Assembly (NCBI GenBank): GCA_003336485.1
Contig: QENH01000193.1
Location: 1 to 51,367 of the forward strand
DNA: 51,367 bases
Reading direction: 5' to 3'
Source: Candidatus Methanophagales archaeon
GTDB taxonomy: Archaea; Halobacteriota; Syntropharchaeia; Alkanophagales; Methanospirareceae
Positions 26,777-40,384 of the stretch are shown one piece after another (within the stretch, counting starts at the first letter, position 1; each line of letters begins with the position of its first letter). A program made the translations under genes and the position numbers. Below the pieces are notes generated by a model. That model was given only the letters and a program-made list of their open reading frames with translations. It made no database searches and was not told where the DNA came from.

Positions 26777-27811
26777 TTAAAGCCTCAATTCCCCTGCTAC
26801 ACTTACGCCCATATTTATCGTTACTTCTGCTATATCCTCACAATACTTCGCTATCCTGCCTAAACTCGCCAGTATAGAAAGAGCGTGTATTTTGTCGGTG
26901 ACAGAGCATTCTTCTGCCAGTATTCGCTCATTTATCTCTTCAACAGCATCAGAAAGAATAGTTGCAGCTTTTATCGCTTCATTCGCCTTTTTTATATCTA
27001 AATCAGATAATGAAGCTAACGTCGCAATGAACAGAGTTTTAGCAGAAACACCTGCCTCTTTTATGCCTTCTAAGCCCTTAAATTCGCCCGGTAATGACAT
27101 CATCATAGAATTCTTTGCTATGTTCTCTACATGGTCACCGATCCGCTCCATGCTCTTTACTATTATTCTGTGACCCAGGCTATCGCGCTGTCGGCCCACG
27201 CCTATCTTCTTCGCAAGCTCGGAGTCGCTCATCGCAGCCTTAAGCTGCCTCACAATTAGCAAATAGAATCTATCTATCTCGTTATCTCGCTCTACAACAT
27301 TAGCCGCAAGGTTAAGATCGCGTGTATCAAGTGACGCGATTGCATCTTCTTGCATTGACAATATTATCATGGACATACTACGTATCGCATCCCGTAGCGT
27401 AAAGTCCTCGTACTTCAAGAAACTCTTGAGCACTATTTCACCCGCGGATTCACCAACGACCTCCATACCTATAAGCCTCTTTCTTACCTCATCCTTTATC
27501 CGCTTCCTTTCATCAGCGCCAAAACCGTCTGGGAACAAGAGCTTTATGATGTCATATCCGACGAGGTAATGGGCGATGATACACCGGAAGTTCCCCTCAA
27601 AGCTTTCTTGTTCTGATAGAACGAGTTCAGCGCTTTTTATCTGCTCTCTCTTATCCCTCACGGGCGTTAGAATGAGCGAGTTGTCAGTACGCTGAACCAA
27701 AGAGAGTTCATCGCCTTGCTTTATTCCTACATCCTTTGCCCATTTTATAGGTAGCGAGACAGTAAAAGTCGAACCACCAGTAAGTTGTATCTTTCTCTTC
27801 TCTTCTTTCAT
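26777..27811 (-). CDS. AbrB-PhoU regulatory protein
   Basis: About 344 residues from the ATG at 27811, chosen because the recognisable SpoVT/AbrB swapped-hairpin domain starts there (KIQLTGGSTFTVSLPIKWAKDVGIKQGDEL) in short pieces: GGSTFTVSLP and GIKQGDELSL. Two PhoU-like helical bundles follow, with RDNEIDRFYLLIVRQ and MERIGDHVENIAKNSM, the metal-binding-type motifs of PhoU. Archaeal AbrB-PhoU proteins are thought to link phosphate status to gene control. No phosphate transporter is adjacent. It is divergent from the Mpa/ARC-like ATPase gene. Confidence 0.88.
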   Translation of the reverse strand: MKEEKRKIQLTGGSTFTVSLPIKWAKDVGIKQGDELSLVQRTDNSLILTPVRDKREQIKSAELVLSEQESFEGNFRCIIAHYLVGYDIIKLLFPDGFGADERKRIKDEVRKRLIGMEVVGESAGEIVLKSFLKYEDFTLRDAIRSMSMIILSMQEDAIASLDTRDLNLAANVVERDNEIDRFYLLIVRQLKAAMSDSELAKKIGVGRQRDSLGHRIIVKSMERIGDHVENIAKNSMMMSLPGEFKGLEGIKEAGVSAKTLFIATLASLSDLDIKKANEAIKAATILSDAVEEINERILAEECSVTDKIHALSILASLGRIAKYCEDIAEVTINMGVSVAGELRL

Positions 27812-27962
27812 CGTATTATGTGTCTTATGTCGATACGCTTTTATTTTGAGCCATGTATTTGCTACAAATTGCAATGCATCAAGAATATATATATAAGGCT
27901 AGATTATATAGTAATTAAAATAACCAGCTTCTTTGGTGATGCTTTCTTTTTTAACGAAAGCT

Positions 27963-27970
27963 TTTTTATA
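27963..27970 (+). promoter_or_regulatory. TATA-like box ahead of the Pup-system operon
   Basis: TTTTTATA lies about 28 bases before the ATG at 27991, preceded by an A/G-rich stretch. It predicts a leaderless or very short-leader mRNA for the ATPase gene. A GGGG four bases later could instead serve the Met at 28003. Confidence 0.45.
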
Positions 27971-27990
27971 AAACCAAGTTCTATCTTTTA

Positions 27991-29634
27991 ATGGGGATAC
28001 GTATGGAGACGGAGGACTATATACCAAGATATGAGTATGAGCGATTAGAGAGCGAGTATCGGAGATTAAGGCGCAAATATGAAGAAACCGAGGCGTATAA
28101 AGCAGATTTAGAGAAGCTCGTTTCAAAATCAAGGTCACCTCCTTTAGACTGTGGGTTCGTAATAGAGAAGCTAGAAGACAGCGCAATTGTGAATTTGAAT
28201 GGCGCTTTAAAAGCGTTGCCCTACGGAACGCTTGCTGCGGAAGAGATAGAGGCGCTACAAGCGGGTGAATATGTATTCGTAGGTCGCATCCCTGATAGGA
28301 ATAACCCCAGTGGGTTTACAATAGGTATCACGAGGGGGTATGATCGTAGGGTGGATTTAGAGGTTGGAGAAGTAGAAGAGCTGATAAAAGACGAATATGA
28401 CGATGGTTGGGTAGCCGAAATATCAATAGGGAAGGGCCGCGGCAGGTTATATAAGCGGCTGGGAGAAGAAGAGAAGGAAAAGCTAAGAGAAGGTATGAAA
28501 GTAGGTCTTCTTCCTGGAACGTTTGATATACTGCGGGCCTATAGATCAAAGGATTATTCACGCTATGAAGTCACGAAGAGTCCTGGCGCGAGCTTTAATG
28601 ATATTGGTGGTTTAAAAGAGGTAAAGCAGGAATTAATAAAGAGCATTATTCTTCCAATGGTAAATCCGGATGATTACACAAAATATGGTGAATCCTCCAG
28701 AAGGATACTGATGTATGGTCCGCCGGGCTGTGGAAAGACAATGTGCGCAAAGGCTTTAGCATCGGCATTACCCAACTGTGAATTTGTAAAGGTGGGTGCA
28801 GGCGAGCTTTTCAGTATGTGGCTCGGCGAGTCGGAGAAGAATGTGCGGCTGGTGTTTAAGGCGGCAAATGATAAATTAGAGGAGGGTGAGAATGACTATG
28901 GTGTGATCTTCTTTGATGAGATAGACGCATTAGCACAAGAAAGGGGCATGTATTCTGGGTCATCCGGTGCACCCGAAAGAGTTACGGGACAATTACTGGA
29001 TATTTTAGATGGGTTTCATGCACTACACCCGCACCTTACTGTGATAGGCGCAACAAACCGATTGCACCTTATTGATTCTGCATTCAGATCGAGATTTGAC
29101 AAAATAATTGAAGTTTCACAGCCTGATAGAGAAGCGGCATATTCCATCGCTTCCATTTATGCAAATACGCTCCCCCTCGATTACCATCTGGTAAAGGAGA
29201 AGGGCGGAGATGAGGAAACAAGGTCGTATCTGGTGAATGAGATTGTCGGATACATGTACAGTAATACTCTTGTTGAGACAGAGATAGGGCGGATAAAGCG
29301 AGAGGACACAATAACCGGACGGTTCATCGCACAGATATTCGGCTATGCGCAAGATAAGGCATTAGAGGAGCGAACAATGTTGATGCTGAAGAAAGGAACA
29401 ATAAAAGATGAAGAACTAAGGGTTATGTGGGATAAGGAAGGGCTTGAGTCGATATTAGATGCCGGAAGTAAGGCAGAGGCGTTACAGAAGAGATATAAGC
29501 ATGTAGGGGAGATAGGTGTGAGCATGCGGCACTTAATAGAAGGGTTTGATAAGTTCGTGCAGAGAAGGGCAGAAGAGATGATTGCGTCCGGCTATGAGGC
29601 GCTGCCAGAGGAAGAAACCGGAATGCATTTTTAA
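27991..29634 (+). CDS. Proteasome-activating AAA ATPase, Mpa/ARC-like
   Basis: 547 residues. Mpa/ARC forms a hexameric ring that recruits pupylated proteins through its N-terminal coiled coil, unfolds them and feeds them to the 20S proteasome. Visible here: a coiled coil at about 15-47 (RLESEYRRLRRKYEETEAY), two OB-like segments (about 55-185) that match the double-OB inter-domain of Mpa rather than the single OB of PAN, and an AAA module with Walker A GPPGCGKT (243-250) and Walker B VIFFDEIDAL (305-314). The C-terminus is GMHF, where a Tyr would be expected in the penultimate position of an HbYX or GQYL tail. It heads a four-gene operon (17 bases to the PafA-like gene). A Cdc48-like or PAN role is less likely given the neighbours. 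Confidence 0.85.
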   Translation: MGIRMETEDYIPRYEYERLESEYRRLRRKYEETEAYKADLEKLVSKSRSPPLDCGFVIEKLEDSAIVNLNGALKALPYGTLAAEEIEALQAGEYVFVGRIPDRNNPSGFTIGITRGYDRRVDLEVGEVEELIKDEYDDGWVAEISIGKGRGRLYKRLGEEEKEKLREGMKVGLLPGTFDILRAYRSKDYSRYEVTKSPGASFNDIGGLKEVKQELIKSIILPMVNPDDYTKYGESSRRILMYGPPGCGKTMCAKALASALPNCEFVKVGAGELFSMWLGESEKNVRLVFKAANDKLEEGENDYGVIFFDEIDALAQERGMYSGSSGAPERVTGQLLDILDGFHALHPHLTVIGATNRLHLIDSAFRSRFDKIIEVSQPDREAAYSIASIYANTLPLDYHLVKEKGGDEETRSYLVNEIVGYMYSNTLVETEIGRIKREDTITGRFIAQIFGYAQDKALEERTMLMLKKGTIKDEELRVMWDKEGLESILDAGSKAEALQKRYKHVGEIGVSMRHLIEGFDKFVQRRAEEMIASGYEALPEEETGMHF

Positions 29635-29651
29635 TTTGAGCCCCCAAGAAA

Positions 29652-31406
29652 ATGGAACGGGTGGATTTGAACAGATGGCAAGGATTAGAGCATGAATTCA
29701 GAGTGGGAATAAGCTCAGAATCACCTAACTTGTACAGATACGCAAGGTTTTATCATGTAGATGAAGTGATCCATGCACTTGAGCATTATGCTTTTTTCGA
29801 CGGTTCGAAAGCAATCTGCTCGAAGATGCGAAGGCGGAACGATGGTTTTTTGCGTAATGGCTCACGAATTTATATATGCACCGGTGGTCACTTAGAGATA
29901 GCCACGCCAGAATGTAGAAACGCATTTGAAGTGCTAAAATATGATAAAGCAACGGAGTTGTATATGCAGATCGGCGTGGAGAAAGCGAACGAGAAATATC
30001 GGGAGAAACGGAAACAAAGTGTGAATTCTAGTTCATATATCCAATGCTGGAAAGCAAACGTGGAGATAGACAAGCGGTATAGCCGTGGCACACATGAATC
30101 TTATATTGTAGAGCGGAAGAAATATGTAGGTAAAGAGAACCTGCTCATCCCGTTTTTAGTGCTTCGTAAGATATTTTTTGGCGCGGGCGGCTATGTAGCA
30201 GATAAAGAGCACATAAAATATGTACTATCGCCAAAAGCGATGGTCTCAAAGAGGGTACTTACCGAATCACCTTCACAGTGGCCAATATTATCCCTGAGAG
30301 ATGAGCCATTGAGCACAAAGGATACATATCGTGTGCATGTAACATCAGGCGAAGGAGTTCGTTCTGAGGTCACGAGGCTGCTCAATAATGCTATTACATC
30401 ATACGTAATAGATGCAATAGAATCGGGTAAAATTACGCATGTGGAAGAGATCCGGAATCCGCTACAAACATTTAAAGATATTTCCGAGAACATAAGTGGG
30501 GACTGGAGAATACGGCTAATGAATGGTAGGACGCAGTCAGTCACAGATTATATTATGAGTTATTATATTGCGGCAATAGAGGAGTTGTTTGAGGAGCGAG
30601 AAGTGTCTTATTGGGATAAATACTGTTTGGACACGTTTAAGCGTATTTGCGCCAAGTTCGATCAGGGCCTGCTAGAGGACCCATATGTTCTTCGTCGTAT
30701 AGAATGGGTGATGAAGTTATGGGTGATAAAGAATGAGTTGGGCGAGTTTGATTATAAGCATATACCAAAGGGTAAATTCGATTACCGGAGCAAGTACCAG
30801 ATGGAAGGTATGGAAGAGAAAGAGATAGCGGCTTCTTTTGAGTTCACCAATCTCTGTGATTCTGACTTATACGAGAGTGTAGCAGATAAGATAGGGGTGG
30901 AACGAATACTGACGGAGGAGGATATAGGGGAAGCAATGCTATATCCACCGAAGGGTTCAAGAGCTGAGCTAAGGGTGAAACTCGCATCGGAATACAAGAA
31001 TGCGGCACTGAGCTGGAATAAGATAACGATAATTAATGAGCCAAATGTGAAGATCGACATTGGCCGACCGAGCAGTGATGAATATGCGCGGCTGTTTGAG
31101 CGGTATCCAGAACTCGCGAGGATGCCCAGTGCGGTAGTGGTCTTTTTCCAAGAGCAGGGTAGAGGAGAAGGCGCAAGACAGGTTCTTGTGCGGCTACTTG
31201 CAGAAGAGGAAGACATAAGGGGCTGGGAGGAGGAGCTAAGCCGGGAAATAAGGAATAGAATCGTAAGAAATCCATACCTAGATTCATTGTTGTATTCTAA
31301 TAACAAAACATATCGGTTTGATGAACTTGATGGCTGGGACGATGCGTCAATAAGAAAGAAGATAGAAGAGATAAAGCAGGGCGAGAAGGGGGGCGATCAG
31401 ATATAG
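29652..31406 (+). CDS. PafA-like Pup ligase homologue, altered active site
   Basis: 584 residues versus about 450-480 for bacterial PafA. PafA, a carboxylate-amine ligase of the glutamine synthetase superfamily, joins the C-terminal Glu of Pup to substrate lysines. Family landmarks: GLEHEF (11-16, E13 as metal ligand), FLRNGSRIY then GGHLEIATPEC (66-88), GTHESYIV (H148, E149), SLRDEP, NPLQTFKDIS, then TEEDIGEAMLYPPKGSRAELR near the end of the core, matching PafA's TDEEIAEAV-PP-TRARLR block. The catalytic Asp of PafA (Asp57 in the M. tuberculosis enzyme, in RLYLDVG) is Cys76 here (IYICTGG), and the EPH motif is EPL. A roughly 100-residue C-terminal extension is unrecognised. It lies between the ATPase and Dop-like genes. 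Confidence 0.85.
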   Translation: MERVDLNRWQGLEHEFRVGISSESPNLYRYARFYHVDEVIHALEHYAFFDGSKAICSKMRRRNDGFLRNGSRIYICTGGHLEIATPECRNAFEVLKYDKATELYMQIGVEKANEKYREKRKQSVNSSSYIQCWKANVEIDKRYSRGTHESYIVERKKYVGKENLLIPFLVLRKIFFGAGGYVADKEHIKYVLSPKAMVSKRVLTESPSQWPILSLRDEPLSTKDTYRVHVTSGEGVRSEVTRLLNNAITSYVIDAIESGKITHVEEIRNPLQTFKDISENISGDWRIRLMNGRTQSVTDYIMSYYIAAIEELFEEREVSYWDKYCLDTFKRICAKFDQGLLEDPYVLRRIEWVMKLWVIKNELGEFDYKHIPKGKFDYRSKYQMEGMEEKEIAASFEFTNLCDSDLYESVADKIGVERILTEEDIGEAMLYPPKGSRAELRVKLASEYKNAALSWNKITIINEPNVKIDIGRPSSDEYARLFERYPELARMPSAVVVFFQEQGRGEGARQVLVRLLAEEEDIRGWEEELSREIRNRIVRNPYLDSLLYSNNKTYRFDELDGWDDASIRKKIEEIKQGEKGGDQI

Positions 31407-31447
31407 AGGAGAAACTGTTATACTTGCAGAATGCATATTAAAGATTA

Positions 31448-33010
31448 ATGAGTGAGCGGATGAAGAGCGCAGGTACAGAGAATAAGATAAGAGGCATAGA
31501 GCAGGAATACCCAGTGAGTGCCAAAGCGGGTATGAATCCGTCCTTGCTCGTTAATGCTGCGATACAAGGAATAAAACACGGTAAATTTTCGCGGGATGTC
31601 AACTGGGACGTGGTTATGGAGATCACGCAAGAAGCGCACGAATCGCGAATATTGTCCTCATATGGCAAAAACGGCAGTCGTATTTATAACGATCTGGGCC
31701 ATCTCGAAATATCGACACCGTCGTACAACAATCCCTTTGACGCTGTGGCATATGATAAGGCATCAGAGATATATGCCTATGTGGGCTCACGGGAGGCGAG
31801 TTTGGCGTTAAAGAAGGAAGTGCGTATCCATAAGAATAATGTCGCCAACTTCTTTACTTCTCTTGGCAGGTGGAAGGAGAAAGGAAAGAAGGGAAGGATA
31901 AAGACCAATACGTACGCTACGCATGGCAATATAATAACCAAAAGGGAAGCGTGCAAGGATTGGAGTCGCGTAGAAAAGGCTTTATTACCCTGGATAATTA
32001 CGAGAATCTTGTTTACCGGGTCAGGAGATGTTGTTTCTGGCGACATGATAAGAAAAGGAAGCGTGAAGTTCGTAATTTCGCCGCGGGCTATGTTTGTAGC
32101 CCATAAGTCTTCTCTTTCCACTACACGCGAGCGAGGCATATTGAACACGAGAGACCAGCCCCATGCTGCGCATCAGTACTGGCGACTGCACGACATCCAT
32201 TACGAAGCACTTCGGTCGCAATATGCGATTTTCTTACGCGATATAGTACAAGCGCAGGTGATTTGCGCCTTTGAGTCAGGGTTCTTAGACAATGCACCTG
32301 CGATAGAGGATCCTGTGAGTGCGTTTAAGAAACTGTCATTGGATACACAGGAATGCAAGTGGCAGCTAAAATTGAAGAGCGGTGAGGTGACCGATGCAGT
32401 ATCCATATTACAGTTCTATTTGGATGCGATAGAGCAGATGCATGAATTTGGTGGTACGGAACTAGGTAAGTGGGATGAACTGGGTCTGAAAGGGTTTAGG
32501 GAACTGTTAGACGATTTAGAGGCTCGGCACATGGAGAAATATGTGGATGGCATAGATTGGGTAACGAAATTGGCGCTGCTTGTGAATTATGAACCCAAAA
32601 GCGCTTCGGAAGGAATAAGCATATGTAACCAGTATGCCTTACTGGATGAAAGCGTACAGGAATACATAGAGGGCAAGAAGGGCAGTAGCGCCTGCCTGTT
32701 CAATCCCTCAGATTCAATGGCATTTGCAAAGAGTAAATTACCGCAGGTAAATTGGTCTTCGTTTCCTGATCGGGTAAGATATGCACTCAGTAATGCACCC
32801 GAGCAAACGCGCGATTTTTTTAAGGCGGAAGTAATGAAACGATATGGTTCGCAAGTGAGCAGTGTTAGCTGGTCAACATTGGTGCTTGACAAAGCGAAGA
32901 TAGCATTGGATGAGCCGTTTATGTTGAACAAGGAAGAGATAGAGCTAAGGGGCGGAATAGAGGAGATCATATCAGCAGCGAAAAAGTTATATCCTGAGAA
33001 GGTTAGTTAA
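31448..33010 (+). CDS. Dop-like depupylase/deamidase homologue
   Basis: 520 residues, close to bacterial Dop (about 500). Dop removes Pup from substrates and converts a C-terminal Gln of Pup to Glu. Landmarks: GIEQEYPVS (16-24, E18), a Dop-type insertion with NWDVVMEI matching the WDYE-type segment but shorter than in actinobacteria, then NGSRIYNDLGHLEISTP with the catalytic Asp kept (D82), HKNNVANFF, GSGDVV, LNTRDQPH and WRLHDI, and near the end TRDFFKAEVMKRYG followed by VSWSTLVLD, aligning well with Dop's TRAYFRGECLRRFG block. The normally conserved HEN motif reads HGN (G160). Because the Pup-like protein already ends in Glu, deamidation would be unnecessary; depupylation is the expected job. 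Confidence 0.85.
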   Translation: MSERMKSAGTENKIRGIEQEYPVSAKAGMNPSLLVNAAIQGIKHGKFSRDVNWDVVMEITQEAHESRILSSYGKNGSRIYNDLGHLEISTPSYNNPFDAVAYDKASEIYAYVGSREASLALKKEVRIHKNNVANFFTSLGRWKEKGKKGRIKTNTYATHGNIITKREACKDWSRVEKALLPWIITRILFTGSGDVVSGDMIRKGSVKFVISPRAMFVAHKSSLSTTRERGILNTRDQPHAAHQYWRLHDIHYEALRSQYAIFLRDIVQAQVICAFESGFLDNAPAIEDPVSAFKKLSLDTQECKWQLKLKSGEVTDAVSILQFYLDAIEQMHEFGGTELGKWDELGLKGFRELLDDLEARHMEKYVDGIDWVTKLALLVNYEPKSASEGISICNQYALLDESVQEYIEGKKGSSACLFNPSDSMAFAKSKLPQVNWSSFPDRVRYALSNAPEQTRDFFKAEVMKRYGSQVSSVSWSTLVLDKAKIALDEPFMLNKEEIELRGGIEEIISAAKKLYPEKVS

Positions 33011-33021
33011 AACAAAAGAAA

Positions 33022-33030
33022 CTTTATTTA
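33022..33030 (+). promoter_or_regulatory. TATA-like element upstream of the Pup-like gene
   Basis: TTTATTTAT in the 72-base gap after the Dop-like gene may give the small protein an extra promoter, which would allow it to be made in excess over the enzymes. Only sequence and spacing support this. Confidence 0.3.
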
Positions 33031-33082
33031 TCAAAGAGCGGGAATATTTATTTACTATGGCGTGGCAGAGAGAGGGTTTAAA

Positions 33083-33337
33083 ATGGACGTGATTAAAGGC
33101 AGTATGGAAGAGGTGGAGTTAGAAGCGGAAGAGGAAGAGGAAGAGGAAGAGCTATTAGAAGGTGAAGTAGAATACGGCGGAGAGGAGAAGGATAAAGAGA
33201 TGGCGGGCATAATGGGGCGGTTGAAGAAAAGGGAGAACAAGGAGAAAGCCGCTGATCTTGTAAGCAAATTGAAGGGTAAAAAGAAATCGAATAAGAAGAT
33301 AATGCATTATGAAATATACGCAACTTCAGGGGAATGA
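33083..33337 (+). CDS. Pup-like small acidic protein ending Ser-Gly-Glu
   Basis: 84 residues from the ATG at 33083, preceded by a good ribosome-binding site (GAGAGGG, 6-base spacing). A GTG at 33062 would add seven residues. The N-terminal half is strongly acidic with a run of Glu (about 13-31); the middle is charged and probably helical (DKEMAGIMGRLKKRENKEKA), and the tail is MHYEIYATSGE. Bacterial Pup is 60-75 residues, acidic, disordered with a helical centre, and ends in an aromatic-rich segment plus GGE or GGQ. Size, acidity, tail and position directly behind ATPase, ligase and Dop genes all support Pup. Homology is too weak to be certain from sequence alone. It may also have its own TATA-like element near 33022. 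Confidence 0.7.
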   Translation: MDVIKGSMEEVELEAEEEEEEEELLEGEVEYGGEEKDKEMAGIMGRLKKRENKEKAADLVSKLKGKKKSNKKIMHYEIYATSGE

Positions 33338-36304: not shown

Positions 36305-37207
36305 TATACAATGTAGACGAGGGTTAAAGGGAAGGAGAGAGAAGAAGGGACTAGAAATAAAAAATAGAGTGATAGAACCGAAGGAAGTAAGAAGAATAGC
36401 GGTGGTGTCTTTGTAGTTAAGTTAAGAGTACGAGTTGGAGATTACAGGATACTCTATGAATATCTAACGAAACCAAGAAGATATTTAGGGAGGAAGAGAT
36501 GATAAAATATTGGATATGTTAGTTGAAACGGCTGGATGATTTTGTTTGTGATTGAAATGATAACACGGCATTAGTTGATGGAGGAAGGAAGGAAAGGAAA
36601 GGCGGAGAGAGTTAAAGCGTGAAGAAGATCAAATCATAAATCAGTAAATCTTCTTAGCTTCTGGGATTTCTCCCTCTTTTGCAAATCTTCTCTGTTCTAT
36701 CCTATTGTTCGGCTTTTCGACCACGTAGGAGATGCAGACACCGAAACACATCGCTATTAGAACGATTTTAAACATCACTCCCTGTTTAAGCCTTCTCGAA
36801 GCGCCGATAATAAGTATTTATCACAAAAGCATCCACATTTGGTCTTTTAGCTCTATTATAAGCGAGCTGTCCATTTATATCATCATAAAACAGTTGTTCT
36901 AACACACACACATATTTTTTTTTGGTCCCATTTCAGGTAGAATCAAATTTAATGGATTTTTTGTTGTGCTTTTACAATTCAATGAATGAGTGGCTGTGAA
37001 TACGCAAAAGATGCATTTAAAATTTAGAGTTATAGGGTAAGTTAGGGATGGGGCCAAATTTTAATAGCTTCATTATCTGTCTATGTTGAACACAAGTTAG
37101 TTCTACTTAAAGCTTTCTATACTGTTCCGTACAATGTACGTTTCGCTGTAAACATATCTCTTATGGTTAGTGGAAGAAGCGACAAATGTGGAGGCGAATA
37201 TCAGAAG
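36305..37207. other. Long region with gene remnants only
   Basis: No intact recognisable gene. At 36428-36460 there is a near copy of the RelE segment RVRVGDYRILYEY, sharing about 30 bases with the relE pseudogene at 35217-35247. A minus-strand 41-codon frame from a GTG (36786-36911; ends YYRRFEKA) and the short frame listed separately below are not recognised. The rest is AT-rich, with the probable promoter for the 37208 gene in its last 150 bases. Confidence 0.5.
36641..36775 (-). CDS. Possible 44-residue membrane peptide
   Basis: ATG at 36773-36775, a hydrophobic segment FKIVLIAMCFGVCISYVV, then a charged tail ending PEAKKIY. GGGAG lies just upstream. No homology recognised; it may be a remnant. 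Confidence 0.25.
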   Translation of the reverse strand: MFKIVLIAMCFGVCISYVVEKPNNRIEQRRFAKEGEIPEAKKIY

Positions 37208-40200
37208 ATGAAAAAAGGCGATAAATGGAAGAAGGTTTTGGGTGTGATTGTGATCTTGGCGATTATTGTGGCAGTATTTAGTGGTGCCGTGTCGGCTGAG
37301 GATGTGTCGAGAGGGTTAAAACAAAGTGTTGTCGACAAGGCCCCTAGTAAAGACAACACCATTTTAGATGAGGAATATGGCGTAGTGCCAGCGGAGGATG
37401 TGTCGGAGGGGTTAAATGAAAGTGTTGAAGATGCGGAGATACAAACTGCATTTGCTGAGGATAAAATACAAAGTCTGAATAGCCAAACTGAGATCTTTGT
37501 GGGACAAGGCTTCGATAAATGCGAGATACCCACCCTAAGCCAAATGCAAAATTGGATAACTAACAGCCCTTATGGAGCAGTGAACCTCTATATCGGTGGT
37601 TCATGTCGTAGTTGTCCTAACTCGGCGCTAACAGCTTCTTACGTATCACAACTAAGCCAGCAAGGTTGGAAGTTCATCCCTACTTGGGTGGGCCCACAAT
37701 CTGCTTGTTGGGGTGGCAGTTGTGGCAGCATAAGCAATGATCCAGCTACCGCTTACAACCAAGGCATAAGCGAAGCAAATGCTGCCATTGGTGTTGCCAT
37801 CGATCTCGGACTTGCGTTGGCGGATGGGTCGGGTACAATCATCTATTATGATCTAGAGGGTTACGACACAACGAATACCGCGTGTCGTAATGCTGCTAAG
37901 TCTTTCATTTCCGGTTGGACTGCCCAGCTTCACGCGAGAGGTAGCTATGCGGGTGTCTATGGATCAGCCTGTAGCTCGGCAATTAGCGACTTCGCTACCA
38001 TAAGCAATATCCCTGATGCTGTTTGGGCCGCTCACTGGTTAACTCCATACCAATATAGACCTGACGCTACGGTGTGGGATGTTGCATGTCTATCAAACGG
38101 TCTCTGGGTTGACCATCAACGCATCAGACAATACGCAGGCGGGCATGGCGAAACGTGGGGCAGTGTTACGCTGATTATTGATTGCAATGTGATTGATGGT
38201 ATCGTGGCATCTGTGGGAGACAAGTTCAATATAGGTGATACTGTTAGAGTTACTACGAATCTTAATGTGCGTACCGGACCAGGAACTAGCTACCCAGAAA
38301 TTACAGATCCCGATTATCCCGGTTATGCACCAGCAGGAACTATTGGAACAGTCCTTAGCGGACCTTCAAGTGCTGATAGTTTTATTTGGTGGGAGGTGAA
38401 TTACGGTCCCGGATTATATTCCGGTTGGTCTGTTGAAGGTGGACTTGAGAAAGTTGACGATAATATACGGCCAACAGTTGATGCTTTCTCTGTCACGCCT
38501 GCTTCTGTCACTTTGGGTGACTCATTTACTGTATCCTATACAGTCTCAGATACAGGCGGTTCCGGTCTAAAGCAGGTAGAACTCTGGCGAAAAGGTACGG
38601 GATCTTGGGAACAAATCGACGTAACCTCGCTTGTAGGCGAAGGTGACGGACCTTATTCTAATTCATTCTACGATGCGCCTACTTCAGTTGGCACTTATTT
38701 GTATGGGATACATGTACAGGATATTGCAGGAAATGAGGGTCTGGAACCAGACCCACCTGGTCCAATTGAGGTAGAAGTTACGCCTGTGAACCAGCCGCCA
38801 ACGCTATCAAACGGTTATGTAACTCCAGCTTCAGGCGATACATCAACAACCTTCGATTATTACGTCACTTACACTGACTCTGATGGAGATGCACCAACAA
38901 CGAAATACGTTTATGTTGATGGGTCGCCGCACATGATGACAATGGTAAGCGGGTCCTACACCTCAGGCGCTACTTTCAAATATTCTACCACGCTTTCGGC
39001 AGGGAGCCACAATTATTACTTCTATTTCGATGACGGGCATAGCCATACAAAGCGATTGCCTACTTCAGGAACGTATTCGGGTCCTACTGTATGTGGCAAC
39101 ATGGGTGTGAATCCAACGACCTGGAGTCCACCAACGCTAAACTGTGGCGAGTCGGATAGCCAAATCGTCACTGTTTCGGCAACTGGTGGTACGGTTGAAG
39201 GTGTAACGGTAAGTAAGATTTCTGGAGAAACATGGCTCTCTCTTAGCCAGACAAATCTCGGGGACATACCCTCCGGCTCGAGCGAGACATTCACGATGAC
39301 TGCTGCTCCACCTTCCGAAACCAGCGGAGATTTTACGTACACTGTCCGAGTGAGCAATACCTGTGGAAGTCCGTCATCGAGGGATGTGACAGGAACGATC
39401 CATGTGGAGTGTCCTGATACAACACCGCCATCAGCCGTTACAGACTTAGCTACAATTGACCCGACAAGCAACTCAATAAAACTCACATGGACAGCGCCGG
39501 GCGATGATGGTAATACTGGCACAGCCACAACCTACGATATTAGATATTTGGAAGGAACATCAATAACAGAATCTGAGTGGGCTTCGGCAATTCAATGCAC
39601 AGATGAACCATCACCAAATCCTGCTGGTAGTGCTGAAGCGTTTGTTGAGACAGGTTTGTCACCGGATACAACATATTACTTCGCACTAAAAACCGCGGAT
39701 GAAGTACCCAACTGGTCTCCGATTTCTAACAGTCCAAGTGGGACGACAGAACCGGGAGAAGTGTCAATCATTTCAATTGACCCATCAAGTTCTAAGATCA
39801 GTGCAGGTTCGACCACAAAAATAAATCTAACCCTTGATAAAGCTCCAAATGGTCTTTCAGGCTATAATTTAACAGTATCATTGTCCAAGGTAACTGTGGC
39901 TGAGATAGTATCCGTAAGCTTCCCATCATGGGCAACTTTACATGATAACTCCACACTTCCTGCGGGTTCGATTTGGATGAAAGCCGCAGATTTAAGTGAT
40001 CAAGTTAAAAGTGGTGCAACTGATATCAACCTTGGAACATTAACGCTTAGAGGGGATAATCAAGGGACGAGTGATATAGTTATAACGGTTACAAAGATGG
40101 ATGATGATAATGGGTATCCGATTAATCCAAATACTATATCAGGTCAAATAGAAGTTACCAGTGTCATTCCAATTCCCGGACACACCAATCCACCCACTGA

Positions 40201-40384
40201 CCCTGACAGTGATGGACTTTACGAAGATTTGAATGGTAACGGCATGAAGGACTTCGATGATGTTGTTCAATTCTTCAAATACATGGAATGGATTGAGGAT
40301 AATGAGCCTATTGCCTGTTTTGACTTCAATGGTAATGGTCTGATAGATTTCGCTGACATAGTGACGTTATTTAAAGAGGTGTAA
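37208..40384 (+). CDS. Large secreted multidomain protein: glycosidase-like, SH3, Ig-like, FN3, cohesin-like and dockerin domains
   Basis: 1058 residues from the ATG at 37208 ([12 protein letters not shown]), where a signal peptide begins (cleavage after VSA near 31). Domains by rough position: a DUF1906/Rv2525c-type glycoside-hydrolase-like TIM barrel at 97-331 ([20 protein letters not shown]); a bacterial SH3 domain at 348-413 ([13 protein letters not shown]); Ig-like or Big domains at 420-738; fibronectin type III at 738-848 ([18 protein letters not shown]); a cohesin-like beta domain at 851-986; and a C-terminal dockerin at 998-1058 with two calcium loops [12 protein letters not shown] and [12 protein letters not shown]. 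It was probably exported and attached to other cohesin-bearing surface proteins, perhaps acting on cell-wall or matrix polysaccharide. The next gene, 5 bases away, carries a nearly identical cohesin-like domain. Confidence 0.8.

Follow-up and report, generated by a model that had tools for sequence, protein, structure and literature searches.

A candidate Pup-type tagging gene cluster in methane-oxidising ANME-1 archaea

A stretch of 51,367 nucleotides from the genome of a Candidatus Methanophagales archaeon (contig QENH01000193.1; this whole stretch is the window hereafter) carries a cluster of four genes that probably constitutes a divergent, stably inherited Pup-type tagging system native to ANME-1, one that would feed the native 20S proteasome. 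The genes encode an AAA ATPase resembling Mpa and ARC, two enzymes of the Pup ligase family, which we call P1 and P2, and a small protein ending in ATSGE. The host belongs to the ANME-1 (Methanophagales), methane-oxidising archaea, and its genome has a completeness of 93.6% and a contamination of 0.8%. The literature places pupylation in actinobacteria and in scattered bacterial phyla (PMC2588565, PMC3511204). In the open-access literature searched we found no earlier report of pupylation genes in archaea; automatic labels in databases may exist.

Results

A preliminary description of the window, made from the sequence alone, had proposed a complete pupylation cluster of four consecutive plus-strand genes, and these reading frames are borne out. 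The cluster and its landmarks are as follows.

27991..29634, plus strand: Mpa/ARC-like AAA ATPase, 547 amino acids (aa); AAA domain E 5.9e-35, the pup_AAA model aligning over 124-449
28717..28740, plus strand: Walker A motif GPPGCGKT, invariant in the ATPase alignment
29617..29631, plus strand: ATPase C-terminal TGMHF, candidate 20S-docking motif, aligned with ARC TGQYL
29652..31406, plus strand: P1, Pup-ligase-family enzyme, 584 aa; PF03136 E 9e-57, PDB Dop E 6.7e-23
29877..29879, plus strand: codon of P1 Cys76, at the position of PafA D64 and Dop D94
31448..33010, plus strand: P2, Pup-ligase-family enzyme, 520 aa; PF03136 E 8.3e-64, PDB Dop E 2.2e-36
31691..31693, plus strand: codon of P2 Asp82, the conserved catalytic Asp of the beta3-beta4 loop by alignment
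33062..33337, plus strand: candidate Pup-type tag, 91 aa, GTG start (alternative ATG at 33083), identified by conservation and purifying selection
33305..33334, plus strand: tag C-terminus ...YEIYATSGE, from C-terminal counts across ANME-1

Two enzymes of the Pup ligase family

P1 and P2 score 193.4 and 216.6 bits, respectively, with PF03136 (Pfam Pup_ligase; cut-off 25), which is the sole significant Pfam family for either protein. Searches of the PDB return Dop as the best match and PafA as the next for both, and clear matches are limited to these two. Glutamine synthetases and gamma-glutamylcysteine ligases, named in the preliminary description as the identities that would undo its reading, are not among the clear matches of either search, and we consider this identity ruled out. 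The two enzymes share 29% identity and both retain the residues expected to handle ATP and Mg. The metal/ATP signature GhExE, absolutely conserved in PafA and GCS2 (PMC2588565), reads GLEHE in P1 (39/40 copies) and GIEQE in P2 (40/41 copies). Furthermore, an Arg and a Trp of the C-terminal domain are invariant (R437 and W455 in P1, R455 and W475 in P2) and align with their counterparts in Dop and PafA; this domain, whose Arg and Trp bind nucleotide, is unique to PafA/Dop (PMC12053664).

The preliminary description had also labelled one enzyme PafA-like and the other Dop-like. The family and the structural matches uphold the likeness, but model cut-offs, trees and loop spacing do not support the labels as orthology. 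With TIGR03686 (PafA) P1 scores 150.7 bits and P2 140.3, neither reaching the equivalog cut-off of 551.3; with TIGR03688 (Dop) P2 scores 188 bits and P1 152, again short of the cut-off of 492.3. By these NCBIfam models P1 has equal preference for PafA and Dop, and P2 favours Dop. The Dop loop, taken as 40-65 residues before beta2, was measured in the alignment as the spacing from GhExE to beta2, which amounts to 81-124 in Dop, 43-44 in PafA, 59-65 in P2 and 54-58 in P1; by this measure the full loop is found in neither P1 nor P2.

In trees built from P1, P2 and actinobacterial-type references, the phylogenetic check that the preliminary description had called for, Dop and PafA form one group to which neither archaeal enzyme belongs. 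A tree constrained to pair P1 with PafA and P2 with Dop was rejected (p-AU 2.2e-5, LG+G4), as was a single clade of P1 and PafA (p-AU 0.0013, LG+C20 PMSF). These trees hold five bacterial sequences only and both archaeal branches are long, so that long-branch attraction is a real concern. As it stands, the sequence evidence does not support orthology, and P1 and P2 should not be named PafA and Dop.

PafA and Dop have a conserved Asp in common, to which activation of the attacking lysine or water is ascribed (PMC3511204); in Dop it is D94 (PMC8599861). P2 has Asp at this site (D82) in 45/45 readable copies. Some ANME-1 genomes hold extra, unlinked PF03136 enzymes resembling P1 (L075 2400-3923, L076 2575-4173, L077 2003-3523 and L078-L081). 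Their catalytic site is occupied by Cys, and no gene resembling the tag lies close to them; the RDEP motif is absent from the three full-length ones.

A small protein as candidate tag

Across ANME-1 the C-terminus of the small protein, IMPYEIYAT[SA]G[EQ], is almost invariant, and its N-terminal half is variable. The endings are ATSGE in 33 cases, ATAGE in 2 and ATSGQ in 1. Bacterial Pup alternates between Glu and Gln at its C-terminus (PMC3511204), an alternation that the single Gln-ending tag (one genome, L045 1827-2090) matches; if it works like bacterial PupQ, this tag would need deamidation before conjugation. Open frames of relatives run to about 80-115 aa. For the final 45 codons, pS amounts to 0.63 and pN to 0.07 (630 pairs); the tag is under strong purifying selection, and the small reading frame is hence not a chance one.

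By profile search the tag is present in 36/38 genomes of the order, and in the two genomes without it the contigs stop within or just after P2. A search of the PDB with the tag gave no convincing chain. In most loci the tag gene adjoins a PafA-family gene, and pup adjoins the enzyme genes in all bacterial lineages examined (PMC2588565). Several genomes, among them the two from the order's second family, have the tag on a separate contig (displacement from the enzyme genes was seen in L055, L072, L074, L093, L094, L097 and L098) with its C-terminus unchanged, which indicates that the tag is kept without linkage.

The ATPase

The preliminary description had read the ATPase as Mpa/ARC-like, with coiled coil, double OB and AAA regions, and our alignment with Nonomuraea ARC and the host's own PAN agrees: a coiled-coil-like start is followed by two OB-sized segments and the AAA domain. 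The second OB-sized segment is common to ARC and absent from the host's PAN, and the C-terminal extension resembles that of ARC. The conserved start is the second in-frame ATG, at 28003. TIGR03689 (pup_AAA) gives 156.9 bits, below its cut-off of 504.75. The N-terminal 187 residues were found in 37/59 relatives, all within the order.

Instead of GQYL, the C-terminus carries the tail [ED]TGMH[FYL] in 38 copies, and the region of the Mpa beta-grasp hairpin is shorter in the alignment. In Mycobacterium, contact with the 20S is made through GQYL and the beta-grasp domain (PMC9599533). As both are changed here, docking of the ATPase on the 20S is plausible but would be altered.

Distribution and genomic setting

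A profile search of 59 relatives found PF03136 genes in 38/38 genomes of the order, and in 0/5 other genomes of the class and 0/16 other genomes of the phylum. A larger sample of 397 genomes of the phylum gave the same picture: 52 carry PF03136 genes, all of them from this order (52 of its 53 sampled genomes), and none were found in the 344 genomes outside it. This survey covered Halobacteriota. The sole sampled genome of the order without the PF03136 enzymes, the tag and the ATPase N-terminus (G228; completeness 92%) may reflect gene loss or an assembly gap. When P2 was searched against genome contigs, only ANME-1 relatives were returned. Named genomes holding relatives are mostly Methanophagales or ANME-1, with some filed as Methanosarcinales metagenome-assembled genomes; one, AG-394-G06, is probably a single-cell genome, to judge from its name. 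Both families of the order have the cluster genes, which are thus old in the lineage, and the arrangement ATPase, P1, P2 and small protein recurs across ANME-1 loci.

This distribution also bears on whether the cluster is bacterial contamination or an assembly chimera, a concern raised in the preliminary description. The family is otherwise described in bacteria, which would fit such an origin. However, the cluster is conserved across the order, in 38/38 genomes with the same gene order in many independent assemblies, and its GC content is close to that of the window (0.445 vs 0.434); we hence regard a chimera as ruled out. The surroundings, archaeal as described before, include Pelota-type eRF1 domains, ribosomal protein S8e, HerA, a DRG-type GTPase and tRNA-Arg, and a further neighbour is an HdrA-like iron-sulfur flavoprotein, the name being inferred.

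The gaps between the four genes are 17, 41 and 51 bases. Two further features lie upstream of the ATPase gene:

27965..27972, plus strand: TATA-like TTTATAAA, 5' of the ATPase gene, a candidate element read from the sequence
26777..27874, minus strand: divergent AbrB/MazE-PhoU protein (PhoU E 2.7e-21, MazE_antitoxin E 1e-11)

No neighbour of the cluster is more constant than the AbrB/MazE-PhoU protein, which has a homologue in 33 loci and is a possible regulator. Further downstream, at 37163-40384 on the plus strand, the window encodes a large protein (1073 aa) in which an Rv2525c-like glycoside-hydrolase-like domain occurs together with an fn3 domain. A role in defence was considered and rejected, as PADLOC matches were to generic AAA only and PHROGs gave none. 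Protein scans of viral contigs and a DNA pattern search found no further bacterial or viral relatives. Unverified entry MT835496.1 (L105, 34126-51355), labelled 'Bacteriophage sp.', carries ARC, Dop and PafA genes and is probably a bacterial contig.

The native proteasome

Genes for 20S subunits are present in every genome surveyed. In the host, the 20S alpha gene lies in the usual archaeal exosome neighbourhood, as read by eye from its neighbours, and the beta subunit starts GTTTIG, as an active subunit does. PAN scores above its cut-off in most genomes, as a separate protein ending EMFA or VMFA, and Cdc48-type ATPases are present too. Given this native 20S and PAN, the cluster is an addition to the archaeal proteasome that brings no 20S of its own.

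Discussion

We propose that the 91-aa protein would serve as the tag. One of the two Pup-ligase-family enzymes would use ATP to activate the side chain of the tag's C-terminal Glu and couple it to lysines on target proteins; the other would take the tag off again or, in the rare Gln-ending case, deamidate it beforehand. The conserved C-terminal half of the tag would bind the enzymes, and the coiled coils of the ATPase would capture a more N-terminal part. The ATPase would use its TGMH[FYL] tail to dock on the host's own archaeal 20S, into which it would thread tagged proteins. Judged from the sequences, ATP-dependent joining of the Glu to lysine by one PF03136 enzyme and reversal by the other is likely; which of the two would be the ligase and which the removal enzyme is less sure, as is delivery to the 20S by the ATPase. 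Conjugation chemistry, docking and degradation, including the feeding of the proteasome already suggested in the preliminary description, are steps that we infer from gene content and conserved motifs.

Several observations weigh against this proposal. The tagging cluster is unlinked to the 20S genes, and with PAN present the ATPase is not the sole possible partner of the 20S. The main rival builds on this: the tag would be a reversible regulatory mark that does not lead to degradation, the ATPase would extract or unfold marked proteins or aid removal of the tag, and PAN and Cdc48 would serve the 20S. The tail TGMHF, neither a canonical HbYX motif nor GQYL, would fit such a role, as would the proteasome-less bacteria that retain Pup and the ATPase (PMC3511204). 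Yet the tail is conserved in all 38 copies and aligns with TGQYL, and no surveyed genome is without 20S genes; we therefore deem a purely regulatory mark unlikely, if worth keeping in view. The catalytic site of P1 is a further difficulty, being Cys in 40/40 readable copies and in 5 unlinked P1-like paralogues. P1 may be a ligase with altered chemistry or itself a changed partner of P2, and its sequence is compatible with both. P2 alone might conjugate and remove the tag, with P1 as a catalytically altered partner, or P1 might ligate by way of Cys76, perhaps through a thioester. The invariance of the Cys in a protein that keeps GhExE and other active-site residues points this way, as does the lack of orthology with PafA and Dop in the tree, although that tree is limited by long branches and a scarcity of bacterial sequences. 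Such an unconventional P1 is a serious possibility, albeit the less probable one; it is compatible with a degradative tagging system, and both may hold. A bolder combination we offer as speculation with long odds: P1 and P2 would descend from a duplication of their own, distinct from the one behind PafA and Dop, the ligase would use Cys76 in place of the catalytic Asp, e.g. through a gamma-glutamyl thioester with the tag, and the system would be a separate branch of Pup-type tagging in the service of the native 20S. AlphaFold models from shallow alignments, with a mean pLDDT of 37.7 for the ATPase and 33.5 for P1, are too poor to confirm the folds.

The remaining adverse points concern the tag. 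The Pfam Pup model PF05639 matches in 0/59 genomes and 0/19 tag members, and the NCBIfam Pup and UBact models do not match the tag either. The N-terminal half is acidic (20 D/E, 5 K/R), and the C-terminal half is basic (6 D/E, 13 K/R), unlike the acidic C-terminal half of the bacterial Pup compared. Hence the earlier view of the small protein as Pup holds for its ATSGE ending and its genomic context but not at the level of profiles: it looks like a Pup-type protein by position, size, C-terminus and co-occurrence, with homology to Pup undetected. This dissimilarity, together with the loss of linkage in several genomes, would suit a scenario in which P1 and P2 have some other small carboxylate or peptide as their substrate, the small protein serving the cluster only as regulator or chaperone. 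We find it improbable in view of the nearly invariant C-terminus with its G[EQ] ending, Gln in one genome included, and of the co-occurrence with an ARC-like ATPase and enzymes bearing the PafA/Dop-specific C-terminal domain.

Among known systems, UBact is reportedly a Pup-like tag of some Gram-negative bacteria, accompanied there by homologous conjugation enzymes and proteasome genes (Lehmann et al. 2017, doi 10.1016/j.bbrc.2017.01.037). UBact is bacterial, however, and its NCBIfam models do not recognise the ANME-1 tag. The UBact C-terminus, R[TS]G[EQ], is close to the ATSGE of ANME-1. The actinobacterial Pup-proteasome system (Mpa/ARC, Dop, Pup, PafA and PrcBA) likewise combines two PF03136 enzymes, an adjacent small tag ending in G[EQ], an ATPase with coiled coil, two OB segments and AAA domain, and a 20S in the same cell. 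In contrast, the ANME-1 system sits in an archaeal host, which supplies an archaeal 20S and PAN of its own, and its cluster includes no 20S genes; its tag is dissimilar by profile and has a basic C-terminal half, its enzymes are not PafA/Dop orthologues by tree and include the Cys of P1, and its ATPase differs in the TGMH[FYL] tail and the shortened beta-grasp hairpin region. Within archaea, SAMP/Urm1-type modifiers also tag proteins and may lead them to the 20S, but these are beta-grasp proteins with E1-like activation, a chemistry other than that of the PF03136 enzymes. SAMPs are mentioned in PMC3511204. PAN is an AAA ATPase of the same broad family, and the AAA core of the ANME-1 ATPase gives the PAN model a slightly higher score; what PAN does not have, unlike the ANME-1 ATPase, is a second OB segment or a C-terminal extension.

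According to one view, bacteria acquired the proteasome by transfer (PMC3511204). A conserved archaeal Pup-type system in a cell that has its own 20S and PAN opens the origin of the Pup-proteasome pairing to testing: the pairing may have had an archaeal source, have come by transfer out of bacteria, or stem from separate duplications of a single ancestral enzyme. P1 represents a natural Asp-to-Cys change in a Pup-ligase-family active site. For ANME-1, important anaerobic methane oxidisers, the cluster provides a candidate route for selective protein degradation.

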